From an uncultured Bacteroidales bacterium (GTDB lineage Bacteria; Bacteroidota; Bacteroidia; Bacteroidales; Paludibacteraceae): DNA of 64,000 nucleotides. Shown here in pieces: positions 818-63,998 of the stretch (positions are counted from its first letter, which is position 1; each line of letters opens with the position of its first letter). The stretch covers positions 158,812 to 222,811 of the forward strand of contig CACZVM010000003.1 in assembly GCA_902784585.1 (NCBI GenBank), given 5' to 3'. The position numbers were made by a program, and so were the translations under genes. Under the pieces are notes generated by a model that was given only the letters and a program-made list of their open reading frames with translations, did no database searches and had not been told where the DNA came from.

Positions 818-842
818 AATATAGGTATTATAATTCACAATT

Positions 843-954
843 CACAATTCAAAATTCTTAGCCCCGAAGGGCACGATTATTTGACAAGGTCAAATTTTCA
901 CAATTCAGAATTCTTAGCCCCGAAGGGCACGATTATTTGACAAGGTCAAATTTT
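843..954 (-). repeat. Two tandem 56-bp units with paired hairpins in the nrdD leader
   Basis: Units 843-898 and 899-954 differ at one base. Read on the minus strand (the nrdD transcript) each unit holds a 7-bp hairpin ATTTGAC-CTT-GTCAAAT, followed by a GCCC-TTCG-GGGC hairpin with a stable cUUCGg loop. They lie just upstream of the nrdD start and are flanked by simple attcacaattc repeats. A regulatory role is inferred, not shown. Confidence 0.75.
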
Positions 955-1097
955 CATAATGCACAAAGCGTCCTAAAAAACTCCGTACTACAAAAAATGT
1001 ACGGATTCTAATAGTTTGTGCTTTCCGTGGACTAAAAAAATATTAAACAAAAATTGTTTGTTATCTATTATTTTCTATAGTTCATTGAAATCGGGTG

Positions 1098-6758: not shown

Positions 6759-6797
6759 CGCAAAGAAATAAAAAATCAACAAAAAAATTCATGCGCG

Positions 6798-6829
6798 CTT
6801 GCGTATATGAAATATTTTTTGTAATTTTG
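6798..6829 (+). promoter_or_regulatory. Promoter of the bactofilin gene
   Basis: CTTG (6798-6801), 20-base spacer starting CGTATATGA, TAATTTTG (6822-6829). Divergent from the umuDC promoter. Confidence 0.75.
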
Positions 6830-6892
6830 CGCCCGATTTCCATAACTGATAATGAAATCATTCCCCTGAACATATAAAAAATAAGAATAATT

Positions 6893-8818: not shown

Positions 8819-10894
8819 TTGAGAAATTCTCAACACATATTAGTCTTTTGTCTATTGTCCATTGTGCTGTGTCTGAGCGGGTGCTCTATTCAGCAGCGTA
8901 TCAAACGGGCTGACAAGAAGTTCGCCATCGGCGAGTATTACATTGCCGGGGACATCTACAAGCAATGTTACGGCCGGTTGTCGATGAAGAAAGAGCGACA
9001 ACTAAAAGGCTACGTGGCATACCGTCAGGGCGAGTGTTACCGCCTGATCAATAACCCGCGTGCGGCTAACTGCTATCAGAGTGCACTACGCTGCAAATAC
9101 CATCTGCAGGACTCGACTATCTTTCTGCACGCCGGACAGGTGCTGCAATACCAAGGCAAATACAAAGATGCCGCCAAGAGTTACGAACTCTACCTGCAGT
9201 CACACCCTGACAACTACGTAGCGCAGGCCGGTAAGTACGCCTGCCAGAAGATGGACGAATGGCGGAAGCAAACAAGCAGATATAAAGTAGCCGAGGCGAA
9301 GGAGTTTAACCAAAAGCGTACAAGTAACTTCGCACCGATGTTTATAGGTAATCAAAGTGATGCGCTGATGTTCACCACGAACCGTCAGGAGAAGCAGAAA
9401 GGCGGCAAGAAGAGCCTGAAGCGACCGAGCAACGTGACCGGACAACCGATCTTCCAACTCTACCAGACGCGCCAGAACGCCGCCGGCAAATGGGAGGACA
9501 TCGAGATGGTAGAAGGACTGACGGGTGAAGGCAGCGATAGCGGAGAGCAGAAGAACGACTCGACCGACAGCAAACAAGGCGGTTCAGCCGAGATGGGTGT
9601 ATGTAACTTCTCGAGTGACGGCCGTACGATGTACTTCACCTATTCGAAACCCATCAACGGTAAAGACCTCGGGGCAAAGATATGCAAGAGTGAGCGTGCC
9701 AGCGGTGAGTGGGGCGAGGCGCAAGAGGTAATCCTCTTCCGCGACAGTTCGATCACCGTAGGTCACCCTGCACTGAGCAACACCGGTGACACGCTGTATT
9801 TCGTGAGTGACGCTGCCGGCGGGCAAGGCGGAAAAGATATCTGGATGGCAGAACTGGAAAGTGACCAGTGGGTGAACGTACAGCCCCTACCCGCCTCTAT
9901 CAACACTTCGGCGGACGAGATGTATCCGTACGTGCATGCCGACGGCACGCTGTATTTTGCGAGCAACGGTCACCCGGGCTACGGAGGACTGGACCTGTAT
10001 AAAGCCACAATAGACAGCACCGTGACCGATTCGACCGTTTGGGTGGTTTACAACCTGGGCGCACCGTTCAACACCAACGGCGATGACTTCGGCATCACCT
10101 TTGACGGCATGACGCAGAACGGTTTCTTCTCGTCGAACAGAAACGACAAGAAGGGATATGACAAGATATACCGTTTCTGGCTGCCGGAGATGGAGTTTAT
10201 TGCCGAAGGACTGATCACGGACGAGCAGGGCGAACCGGTGGCGGATGCCAAGCTGCGTCTGGTGGGCAGCGACGGTACAAACAGCAAACTGAGCGCAAGG
10301 CGTGACGGAACATACAAGATCAAACTGAAACGCGACGTCAAATATATCATGCTGGTTACAGCCCGCGGTTATCTGAACAGCAAAGAGCAATGGAACACGC
10401 TGGGCATGAAAGACAGCAAGGCCTATGAGATGAACTTCGTGCTCAACCCCATCAGCAGGCCTGTGACGATGAACAACATCTTCTACGAGTTCGGTCGTTG
10501 GGAGTTGACAAAAGCCTCAGAGGAAGAACTGCTGAGCCTCGTAAAACTGCTGCAAGACAACCCCAATATCACCATCGAACTATCGGCACACACCGACATG
10601 AAGGGTAACGAACAGTTCAACCAGGAGTTGTCACAGAAACGTGCACAGAGCTGTTGTGACTTCCTGATCAAGCACGGCATAGAGCGAGAGCGGTTGACGC
10701 CAGTAGGTTACGGCAAGCAACGTCCTGTGGTGGCCGACAAGGCGCTGCACACGCGTTATCCGTTTATCCCGCAAGAACAGGCACTGGACGAGTCCTTCAT
10801 CCTCTCGCTGCCGGCAGACAAGCAGGAGATATGCAACCAGATCAACCGTAGAACGGAATTTAAGGTAGTGAAAACAACGTATAAGTTGTATTGA
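8819..10894 (+). CDS. PorE-like OmpA-family lipoprotein (type IX secretion, probable)
   Basis: 691 residues from a TTG start at 8819. A lipoprotein signal ends LCLSGC (Cys22). The order of parts is TPR-like helices (about 30-150), a PD40/WD40-type beta-propeller (about 165-455, with repeats such as ALSNTGDTLYFVSD and GTLYFASNGHPGYGG), a carboxypeptidase-regulatory-like domain (about 460-545) and a C-terminal OmpA peptidoglycan-binding domain (about 555-690, SAHTDMKGNEQFNQELSQKR). This is the layout of PorE of Porphyromonas, an outer membrane lipoprotein that anchors the type IX machine to peptidoglycan. Other OmpA proteins share it, so the PorE name is probable, not certain. Overlapping short repeats precede the start. 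Confidence 0.8.
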   Translation: MRNSQHILVFCLLSIVLCLSGCSIQQRIKRADKKFAIGEYYIAGDIYKQCYGRLSMKKERQLKGYVAYRQGECYRLINNPRAANCYQSALRCKYHLQDSTIFLHAGQVLQYQGKYKDAAKSYELYLQSHPDNYVAQAGKYACQKMDEWRKQTSRYKVAEAKEFNQKRTSNFAPMFIGNQSDALMFTTNRQEKQKGGKKSLKRPSNVTGQPIFQLYQTRQNAAGKWEDIEMVEGLTGEGSDSGEQKNDSTDSKQGGSAEMGVCNFSSDGRTMYFTYSKPINGKDLGAKICKSERASGEWGEAQEVILFRDSSITVGHPALSNTGDTLYFVSDAAGGQGGKDIWMAELESDQWVNVQPLPASINTSADEMYPYVHADGTLYFASNGHPGYGGLDLYKATIDSTVTDSTVWVVYNLGAPFNTNGDDFGITFDGMTQNGFFSSNRNDKKGYDKIYRFWLPEMEFIAEGLITDEQGEPVADAKLRLVGSDGTNSKLSARRDGTYKIKLKRDVKYIMLVTARGYLNSKEQWNTLGMKDSKAYEMNFVLNPISRPVTMNNIFYEFGRWELTKASEEELLSLVKLLQDNPNITIELSAHTDMKGNEQFNQELSQKRAQSCCDFLIKHGIERERLTPVGYGKQRPVVADKALHTRYPFIPQEQALDESFILSLPADKQEICNQINRRTEFKVVKTTYKLY

Positions 10895-39171: not shown

Positions 39172-39187
39172 TTTTTTCGTCTAAAGT

Positions 39188-39218
39188 TTTGTCAATTCAA
39201 AAAAAAGCAGTACCTTTG
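39188..39218 (+). promoter_or_regulatory. Promoter of the tRNA-Pro unit
   Basis: TTTG (39188-39191), 19-base spacer, TACCTTTG (39211-39218). The transcript would begin near 39225 and include the structured element at 39251-39298 before the tRNA. Confidence 0.7.
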
Positions 39219-39250
39219 CACCCGCTTTTCAGGAGTTGGCGCTAAACCAT

Positions 39251-39298
39251 CCTAGGCGGAGGCCGCTCCTTCCGTTCCGTCGGAAGGACGCTCCGGGT
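39251..39298 (+). other. 48-base structured element, copy E2, joined to the 5' end of tRNA-Pro
   Basis: It begins CCTAGGCGGAGGCCGC (small hairpin GCGG-AGG-CCGC), then an 8-bp hairpin with arms 39267-39274 and 39281-39288 around the loop TTCCGT, then ACGCTCCGGGT, whose last five bases are already tRNA. It matches the inverse of 62374-62421 at 40 of 48 positions; six of the eight differences are three compensated base pairs in the second hairpin. Possible roles are a processed tRNA leader, a small RNA or a mobile palindromic repeat. Confidence 0.7.
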
Positions 39299-39368
39299 AG
39301 TAGTTCAGCCCGGTTAGAATGCCTGCTTTGGGAGCAGGTGGTCGCGCGTTCGAATCGCGCCTACCCGA
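39294..39368 (+). tRNA. tRNA-Pro (anticodon TGG)
   Basis: 75 bases. The acceptor stem CGGGTAG pairs perfectly with CTACCCG, discriminator A. Anticodon arm CCTGC-TTTGGGA-GCAGG gives UGG. T arm is GCGCG-TTCGAAT-CGCGC. CCA is not encoded. It is followed by a strong terminator and preceded by its own promoter. Confidence 0.98.
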
Positions 39369-39371
39369 CTT

Positions 39372-62078: not shown

Positions 62079-62348
62079 CTACTCCCCCTTCTCCTTCAAC
62101 TTTGCAAGCAGTTCCAGTCCCTTAGCGGTAAGTTTGTAGGCTTGTTCGGGTCGACTGGGCACCTCTGGGAACTGCATTTTGACTAATCCTTTGGCAGTTG
62201 CCGGTTTGAGGTAGTTGTCCCGAAAATTGCGTCTCGCACTTTGGCGAAGTCCAAGCGCCGCAATCAGTTCACGACGCGGCAGCACATCCGTTCCAATGAT
62301 GAGCACAAGTCGGTTCACACGATCATCTACTTTCGTTTTAGTATTCAT
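62079..62348 (-). CDS. Small winged-helix protein (Fic/AlbA-type C-terminal domain)
   Basis: 89 residues. It has a winged-helix pattern: VLPRRELIAALGLRQSARRNFR, DNYLKPATAKGLVKM, then PEQAYKLTAKGLELLAKL. This resembles the C-terminal winged helix of Fic-family and AlbA-type regulators, but nothing precedes it, so it is either a free-standing DNA-binding protein or a gene fragment. A paralogue is at 63594-63998. Upstream lies the nine-copy repeat array with a structured element. Confidence 0.7.
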   Translation of the reverse strand: MNTKTKVDDRVNRLVLIIGTDVLPRRELIAALGLRQSARRNFRDNYLKPATAKGLVKMQFPEVPSRPEQAYKLTAKGLELLAKLKEKGE

Positions 62349-62364
62349 ATGTTTGTCAACTGTT

Positions 62365-62742
62365 CAAAAAAGGACCCGGAGCGTTCTCCCAACGGAATGG
62401 GAGAAGCGGCTTCCGCCTAAGAGGGTAATTCAAAAAAGGACCAAGCCATGACACACAACTCATTCAAAAAAGGACCAGGCCATGTATTAACTCTACTCGA
62501 ATATAATATCCCTTCAAAAAAAGGACCAGGCTATGTAATAAGTCTACTCAAATATAAATCTCCACAAAAAAGGACCAGGCTATGTATTAACTCTACTCGA
62601 ATATAATATCCCTTCAAAAAAGGACCAAGCCATGACACACAACTCATTCAAAAAAGGACCAGGCCATATATTAACTCTACTCTAATATTTATCCCTTCAA
62701 AAAAAGGACCAAGCCAAGGGACGTGTTACTCAAAAAAGGACC
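62365..62742. repeat. Array of nine CAAAAAAGGACC repeats
   Basis: Copies start at 62365, 62431, 62465, 62515, 62565, 62615, 62649, 62698 and 62731. Two copies have seven A instead of six. Gaps between starts are 66, 34, 50, 50, 50, 34, 49 and 33 bases. There are two main unit types: about 34 bases (with AAGCCATGACACAC) and about 50 bases (with ATTAACTCTACTCGAAT). It fills the whole gap between the winged-helix gene and the truncated DUF354 gene. The spacing is not that of CRISPR, and the spacers themselves are repeated. Confidence 0.9.
62374..62421 (-). other. 48-base structured element, copy E1, within the repeat array
   Basis: Read on the minus strand it begins CTTAGGCGGAAGCCGC and ends ACGCTCCGGGT. 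The 8-bp hairpin arms (62384-62391 and 62398-62405) enclose TTCCGT, the loop also found in copy E2. Compared with 39251-39298, three stem pairs change on both sides and keep pairing. It lies about 25-75 bases upstream of the winged-helix gene start. Confidence 0.7.
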
Positions 62743-62748
62743 AGGCTA

Positions 62749-63593: not shown

Positions 63594-63998
63594 TCACTCC
63601 GGCTCACCATCCATCGTCGCCAACAGCTCCAAACCTTTCTGCGTCAGTTTGTAGGCTTGTTCGGGTTTGGTGGGAGAATTGGGGTACGCAAAAGCAATCA
63701 GGCCCATGCCACATGCCGGTTTCAGGTAATGATCGATAAACGTTCGCCTACTCTTCTGCCGCAGTTGCAAGTCAGCCACCAGTTGTCGCCGCGGCAGCAC
63801 AGCCTTCCCGATCACACGCACCAATATCTTCACGCGCTCATCCACAGCACCATCTCCACGCAACCGTTTGTTCCTTGGCTCCTCAACAATCACATTAGGT
63901 TCCTCAGTCGGTTCGTCGATTGCCTCAATGTAAAAACTAAATGGCCGGAACCCATCGTTGCAACTGATCATCGCGCTCATCGGATTGCGCATCCACCC
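63594..63998 (-). CDS. Winged-helix protein paralogue (5' end beyond window)
   Basis: At least 132 residues. The C-terminal half (VLPRRQLVADLQLRQKSRRT, DHYLKPACGMGLI, PEQAYKLTQKGLELLA) is clearly related to the protein at 62079-62348. The N-terminal part is acidic and polar (EPTEEPNVIVEEPRN). The frame has an ATG at 63992 but stays open to the window end, so the true protein may be longer, possibly a Fic-type or AlbA-type regulator. Confidence 0.65.
   Translation of the reverse strand, partial: GWMRNPMSAMISCNDGFRPFSFYIEAIDEPTEEPNVIVEEPRNKRLRGDGAVDERVKILVRVIGKAVLPRRQLVADLQLRQKSRRTFIDHYLKPACGMGLIAFAYPNSPTKPEQAYKLTQKGLELLATMDGEPE

Follow-up and report, generated by a model that had tools for sequence, protein, structure and literature searches.

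Rickettsia palindromic elements (RPE) are mobile palindromes that lie between genes, in frame in conserved protein genes, and in the genes of tmRNA and M1 RNA; the available part of the source gives their length as 105 to 146 bp (PMC2229807). In the same part of that source, the Yersinia palindromic sequence (YPAL/RU-2) measures 168 bp, contains internal inverted repeats, and has direct repeats of variable length (3 to 26 bp); positions at tRNA starts are not mentioned there (PMC2229807). A third system, the CGTC-tagged REP super-family, is built on an 8- to 9-bp hairpin, occurs in several phyla including Bacteroidetes, is also found inside genes, and has no known transposase according to the available part of its description (PMC3733652).

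Here, we analyze an element of ~50 bp, two copies of which lie in the window (the whole 64,000-nucleotide stretch of DNA studied). Like RPE, it occurs both between genes and in frame in conserved proteins (EngB, NadD, and AroC). Unlike RPE, it is only about 50 bp long, has a fixed CTCCG^GG end (the caret marks the boundary), and lies exactly at tRNA and tmRNA 5′ ends, not within the RNA. Its direct repeats vary in length, as in YPAL, which is longer and belongs to another host. Many copies show CGTC beside the stem, read backwards, as do the CGTC-tagged REPs. The latter are marked by an unpaired CGTC (or TGTC, CCTC) tag next to the stem; in the element, by contrast, the tag position is paired and changing (pair 36/89: 64 CG, 20 UA, and 18 unpaired), the window copy reads CGTT, the CCA tail is missing, and there are an extra small hairpin and a fixed end. 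We therefore file the element as a new family of the RPE-like kind, set apart from RPE, YPAL, and CGTC-tagged REPs by their described length or tag. The comparison of its behavior with RPE and of its duplications with YPAL draws on the available parts of two sources (PMC2229807 and PMC10969869). No description of the family was found in the literature by title or start of abstract, and exact placement at tRNA and tmRNA 5′ ends is without description in the available parts of the compared papers. The family would place selfish palindromes of the Rickettsia type in a rumen Bacteroidales genus.

Window copies and hairpin structure

The preliminary description reported that the block at 62374–62421 (minus strand) aligns without gaps to 39251–39298 (plus strand) at 40 of 48 positions and that six of the eight differences are three Watson-Crick exchanges (C-G/T-A, T-A/C-G, and G-C/A-T) in an 8-bp stem with a TTCCGT loop. 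Recomputation gave the same alignment and the same exchanges; the second-best ungapped partner of the block within the window matches at 27 of 48 positions. When the whole window was searched with a covariance model, two strong copies were found (Table 1), the third-ranked match having an E value of 0.45. At the gathering score, Rfam recognized only tRNA-Pro in the window, and the element matches no known Rfam family. Folding z-scores were −2.64 (array copy) and −1.23 (tRNA-Pro copy).

The element proper, 62377–62428, is bracketed by two copies of TTCAAAAAAGGACC. These flanks alone do not prove target duplication because the element sits in an array of TTCAAAAAAGGACC. No empty site for the array copy was present among its matches in a listing of 51 matches overall. 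The possibility of a coding tail at 62374–62421, raised earlier, is irrelevant for this copy, as no open reading frame of at least 80 amino acids covers it, but other copies of the family are indeed in frame within conserved proteins. In the minus-strand reading of the array (62429–62748), GGTCCTTTTTTGAA alternates with differing inserts of ~20 and ~36 nt, and the element is one further insert of the same kind.

Overlooked in the preliminary description was the position of the second window copy, which runs into the first bases of a tRNA-Pro gene: tRNA positions 1 to 5 lie within its CTCCG^GGT end. The copy is placed between the likely promoter and the tRNA.

Table 1. Positions of the element copies and adjoining features in the window.
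Feature	Positions	Strand	Basis
Array copy of the putative mobile palindrome (class A; 5′ arm TTCTCCCA)	62377..62428	−	Boundaries by flanking repeat
Model match of the array copy	62374–62430	−	Covariance model, 74.8 bits, E 9.5e-21
Right end CTCCG of the array copy	62381–62377	−	Boundary from flanking repeat
Main stem, 5′ arm TTCTCCCA	62398..62405	−	Read; pairing counted in alignments
Loop TTCCGT	62392..62397	−	Read from sequence
Main stem, 3′ arm TGGGAGAA	62384..62391	−	Read; pairing counted in alignments
Right flanking direct repeat GGTCCTTTTTTGAA, also array unit	62363..62376	−	Repeat search
Left flanking direct repeat GGTCCTTTTTTGAA, also array unit	62429..62442	−	Repeat search
Array hosting the element, AAAAAAGGACC units and alternating inserts	62429..62748	−	Tandem and direct repeats
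Second copy, 5′ leader of tRNA-Pro	39242..39298	+	Covariance model, 73.9 bits, E 1.9e-20
tRNA-Pro (TGG)	39294..39369	+	ARAGORN; Rfam tRNA, 64.4 bits
TTTTG ... TACCTTTG, which we take to be the tRNA-Pro promoter	39187..39218	+	Read from sequence; Bacteroidota promoter motif

The element consists of a small hairpin, GGC[GGAR]GCC, followed by a ~10-bp stem with a bulged C and by CTCCG, ~50 bp in total. The 8 bp described earlier are real, but the true stem is longer, with two extra pairs past the bulged C; one of these has changed on both sides among orthologous copies (L099/L139 and L062/L129). Bases of the GGAR loop can pair with CTCCG bases near the 3′ end, which may represent a loop pairing or a nested outer stem. 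The fourth such pair is broken in 33 of 102 copies. One copy (L145) has a loop insert of ~40 nt.

In an alignment of 106 matches, 102 of them distinct (A2), the main stem was 96.4% paired, both sides had changed at five of the eight pairs, and the whole structure scored 0.232 for covariation, compared to at most 0.130 with partners slid; this alignment was fitted to the proposed structure and so is biased in its favor. An eight-copy MAFFT alignment (A1) gave similar values (0.252 compared to at most 0.157). In the hairpin-filtered set, 159 of 185 copies had a perfect 8-bp stem, the filter itself favoring perfect stems and the set including a few chance matches; about a dozen arm types recurred, each with its own partner.

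Distribution, insertion sites, and host genes

A loose sequence pattern found seven copies in the window’s own genome, and the reversed pattern used as a control found none. A covariance model built from eight own-genome copies had matches in 26 of the 37 genus genomes searched, in 22 of them with E < 1e-8 and in 4 by weak matches only. None of 24 genomes belonging to other families of the order gave a match. This search of the genome and of other Bacteroidales, proposed in the preliminary description, thus returned many copies with covarying stems: pairing persists in further copies, and similar sequence is found at more than 100 sites. The preliminary view is supported in that the element is genuine, recurs, is structured, and carries paired stem changes.

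The 119 located copies, a subset of the listed model matches from which the weakest were mostly left out, have many and unrelated flanks. A pattern scan of named genomes found at least 118 stretches; nearly all of the 80 listed came from rumen or other gut assemblies of Paludibacteraceae or Bacteroidales, and the hosts among the matches listed were goat, cattle, sheep, deer, and yak. One copy (L248) is on a contig labeled Candidatus Alistipes equi, possibly a mis-binned one. In IMG/VR, the element was found in four stretches of three contigs. The single contig of these that was scanned, the phage contig L306, has terminase and head-protease genes, near which the copies at 6792–6832 and 9157–9199 lie within two open frames; these two frames had no PHROG match.

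Six weak model matches in the own genome belong to a sister family and not to the element. This family, GCCCCTTCCGTCTAGGG TTTCCCCG ... CGGGGACACCGTCA^GGT, is embedded in tandem repeats of the GGTGATT type at each of the six places inspected (L442–L447), with CGGGGAAACC instead in one copy (L443).

To the right of CTCCG, 122 distinct non-tRNA flanks begin with G (88%), G (93%), and then T (51%). Direct repeats that start exactly at CTCCG^GG accompany 28 of 182 copies (score of at least 9), compared to 0.74 expected from mismatched flanks. Among these cases, the in-register row for L014 is an artifact, L216 and L304 are possibly one locus in two genomes, and some repeats carry little weight because they fall in tandem repeats, (GGTGATT)n for instance, or in element units arranged in tandem. 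Most copies are without a visible direct repeat. The cleaner cases (L076, L116, L118, L125, L199, L216, L230, and L231) measure ~14 to 21 nt by eye, and the range over all cases is ~9 to 27 nt, with no single fixed length as would be seen for a transposase-driven MITE. The 5′ side is looser, up to ~27 extra bases lying between the repeat and the core. At L017 and L061, the left flank and the element are common and the right flank differs; L061 seems to have lost the lipoprotein signal region. An exact filled/empty pair of a single site was not obtained. Two further candidates were set aside. Most of the 41 left halves that lack a strict hairpin, considered as a larger cargo-bearing relative, proved to be unrelated sequence or imperfect copies. 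In a copy thought to split a start codon (C16), the bases in question are part of the upstream frame.

Long open frames, which are not all necessarily genes, contain 39 of the 121 non-tRNA copies that have long flanks (L304 is a chance pattern match). The stop-free form is commoner in these copies (24 C and 15 A) than in the others (17 C and 60 A; Fisher P = 6.5e-5, orthologs not collapsed). NadD and AroC were verified as in-frame hosts by Pfam, and EngB by the 16 residues at the insert, which are missing from solved relatives. The element is present in three engB genes (L215, L264, and L269); of 30 further EngB genes in the genus, none has the element, 9 are free of inserts, and 21 contain different inserts. 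Among 30 NadD genes, the element was displayed in four; a fifth (L417), missed by the display pattern, has a covariance-model match inside the nadD coordinates. With such inserts, EngB and NadD offer natural experiments on the tolerance of protein loops. Across L382–L441, one EngB loop and one NadD loop carry short in-frame inserts that vary from species to species. The nadD gene at L418 contains yet another repeat in frame, the third, TTCTTAGCCCC ... GGGGCACGATTATT, and a close form of it occurs in a tandem repeat at window positions 841–960.

Copies at tRNA and tmRNA 5′ ends

Some eukaryotic retrotransposons, such as TRE5-A, prefer sites before tRNA genes; they lie at a distance from the tRNA and code for enzymes. 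Unlike them, the element described here joins the tRNA without a gap and has no coding capacity.

In the own genome, five pattern copies adjoin tRNA genes (Pro-TGG, Glu-CTC, Arg-ACG, Arg-TCT, and Glu-TTC), and inspection of leaders adds the element at Ala-GGC. The element is found at 6 of the 31 tRNA genes listed, one additional Rfam hit having no locus. Counted by hand, it is present at 6 of 12 tRNAs with GGT in the first five bases and at 0 of 19 others. Among the located model matches, 30 of 119 end at a tRNA start. In the profile search of all retrieved loci, 41 of 223 copies, the tRNA-Pro copy of the window among them, adjoin a tRNA or tmRNA 5′ end, in one orientation throughout; this share is rough, as the pattern of the named-genome scan favored the commoner stem class. 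For the other 182 copies, ARAGORN called no same-strand tRNA or tmRNA within ~450 nt downstream, and two of them (L095 and L282, the latter at a contig end) resemble tRNA starts by eye. In the rarer stem class (arm TTTCCCCG and kin), 18 of 21 copies are at a tRNA or tmRNA.

Leaders of the same tRNAs in related genomes differ in the presence of the element. It was found in 5 of the 27 tRNA-Glu leaders listed (from 30 tRNA-Glu loci), all five within the 16 exact Glu-TTC matches, and in 5 of 30 tRNA-Arg leaders listed; the Glu leader at L336 has a variant form. Element-free Glu and Arg leaders are down to 16 to 20 nt or contain different repeats.

Beside the 41 tRNA copies, there was no sign of a duplicate of the tRNA start: the mean score was 9.61 for the own tRNA and 9.62 for other tRNAs, and 925 of 2000 permutations were as high. 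This is the least explained point of the analysis. At tRNA-Pro and tRNA-Ala, the CTCCG end reaches into the tRNA, and the junction comes after GGT, not at the cut site. Nor did the 122 dispersed targets show extended homology to tRNA starts (at least 6 nt in 11.5%, compared to 7.2% of controls); the two longest such homologies are themselves tRNA starts.

A second repeat family of the own genome, GAGCGGAGGC ... GCCGAACGCGA, ends at or a few bases from tRNA 5′ ends (e.g., L453, L457, L460, and L466). It is found at Phe, Met, Pro-GGG, and Ser-GGA tRNAs, with more copies at L458, L459, L462, and L465.

Mode of spread and origin of the paired changes

Overall, these results suggest that the element is probably a non-autonomous mobile palindromic repeat of ~50 bp. 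A palindromic mobile repeat had been named as an alternative in the preliminary description, and it is this alternative that the wider evidence shows. The signs of mobility are the many unrelated sites, presence or absence at tRNA and protein genes of relatives, and the in-register direct repeats. The in-frame copies in EngB, NadD, and AroC, the preference for the stop-free form in open frames, and the copies on a contig with phage genes also speak for this reading. In the mechanism we propose, an enzyme acting in trans would insert the element before GG, mostly GGT, and would require the DNA hairpin. Copies with a broken hairpin would cease spreading, and subfamilies would be recognizable by their paired changes. 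In front of a tRNA gene, the hairpin would replace the ordinary short leader beside the RNase P site. The family offers a testable system both for the spread of palindromes without an enzyme of their own and for a mobile hairpin as a substitute tRNA leader.

As for the CGTC-tagged REPs, no dedicated transposase was seen nearby: among 90 locus groups (125 copies), the same protein family was found in at most 4. Movement as a REP element by a Y1 (RAYT/IS200-type) transposase would agree with the short hairpin, with the GGAG motif on its 5′ side, and with the occurrence of REPs inside genes, as stated in the available part of PMC3733652. A strong match to PF01797 (Y1 transposase) was found in one genome of the genus (G027), and weak, partial matches were found in copy-bearing G003, G010, G018, G022, G030, G032, and G035. 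Yet at E 0.001 there was no match in G000, G002, G004, G006, G026, G034, and G036, each of which has several copies, although several of the genomes searched for Y1 or reverse transcriptase are incomplete. It is the missing Y1 transposase in these seven genomes that rules against a REP/RAYT origin. Flanking direct repeats, which are present here, are also not expected from Y1 transposase chemistry. We consider this origin largely refuted and highly improbable.

The tRNA copies invite another explanation, in which the element serves pre-tRNA and pre-tmRNA as a functional 5′ leader by the RNase P site and the dispersed copies are reverse-transcribed leaders, similar to SINEs. RNase P would make the CTCCG end by freeing a leader hairpin that ends in CUCCG, and the hairpin would be copied back into GG sites, including in-frame sites in essential proteins, with target duplications of variable length. 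Such a process would account for the share and single orientation of copies at tRNA and tmRNA starts, for the concentration of the rarer stem class there, for a fixed 3′ end combined with a looser 5′ end and variable direct repeats, and for the absence at tRNA copies of the duplication seen elsewhere. It is harder to reconcile with the junction after GGT at tRNA-Pro and tRNA-Ala, with the near absence of wobble pairs, and with dispersed targets that have no extended homology to tRNA starts. Among the 25 genus genomes searched for RVT_1, matches were present in G002, G008, G012, G015, and G018 and absent from G000, G004, and G006, despite 10 to 22 model matches of the element in each of these three. 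Because no reverse transcriptase partner was found in G000, G004, and G006, we keep the leader explanation only as a rival and regard both its general form and the fuller version with RNase P release as unlikely.

The preliminary description took the paired changes as a mark of selection for a folded RNA or single-stranded DNA. Selection for a folded RNA at this site is unsupported here, both window stems being among many arm types; the reading is weakened further since both arm types recur at other sites in other species. In A2, the 816 cells of the main stem comprise 786 Watson-Crick pairs, 1 of G-U type, 4 C-A, 23 T-C, and 2 others. Under selection for an RNA fold, U-G intermediates should exceed C-A, but they do not, and such selection is therefore not shown. 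The comparison of orthologous sites, in which 16 groups differing in sequence were listed, gave a mixed picture. Paired changes were found at L099/L139 (nadD), at L062/L129, at L064 compared to L205 and L227, where the change is at the three-base hairpin, and at tRNA-Arg L210/L263. One-sided changes were found at engB L264 (two), L117 (one), and L149/L150 (one position), and the entire hairpin was replaced in groups 1, 3, 4, and 8. With wobble pairs almost missing and orthologous sites mixing hairpin swaps, paired changes, and one-sided decay, selection for RNA is left unsupported.

A DNA hairpin, arm-templated correction, or whole-hairpin swapping accounts better for the stem changes than an RNA fold. 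In a rival explanation, the paired changes would come from one arm being copied onto the other in replication or from swaps of whole hairpins between copies, with no selection for a fold. The rarity of G-U type pairs relative to C-A, the en bloc replacements, and the one-sided decay at engB L264, L117, and L149/L150 are consistent with this idea. However, arm copying is awkward to reconcile with paired changes at the three-base hairpin (L064) and across the bulge (L099/L139 and L062/L129), and we consider this explanation possible, if on balance doubtful. In-place upkeep of the fold is plausible, not proven. Three paired changes in non-tRNA orthologous copies hint at an in-place constraint and were counted against the mobile-repeat reading. 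A more general caution is that a repeat may show strong covariation without being an RNA selected for its fold.

Two related minus-strand genes with a match to Pfam Fic-like_C are located in the window at 62079–62348 and 63594–63992. In another genome (G002), the copy L116, flanked by GGTCCCTTTTGAAT, adjoins what by eye is the apparent end of a gene similar to these Fic-like_C genes.
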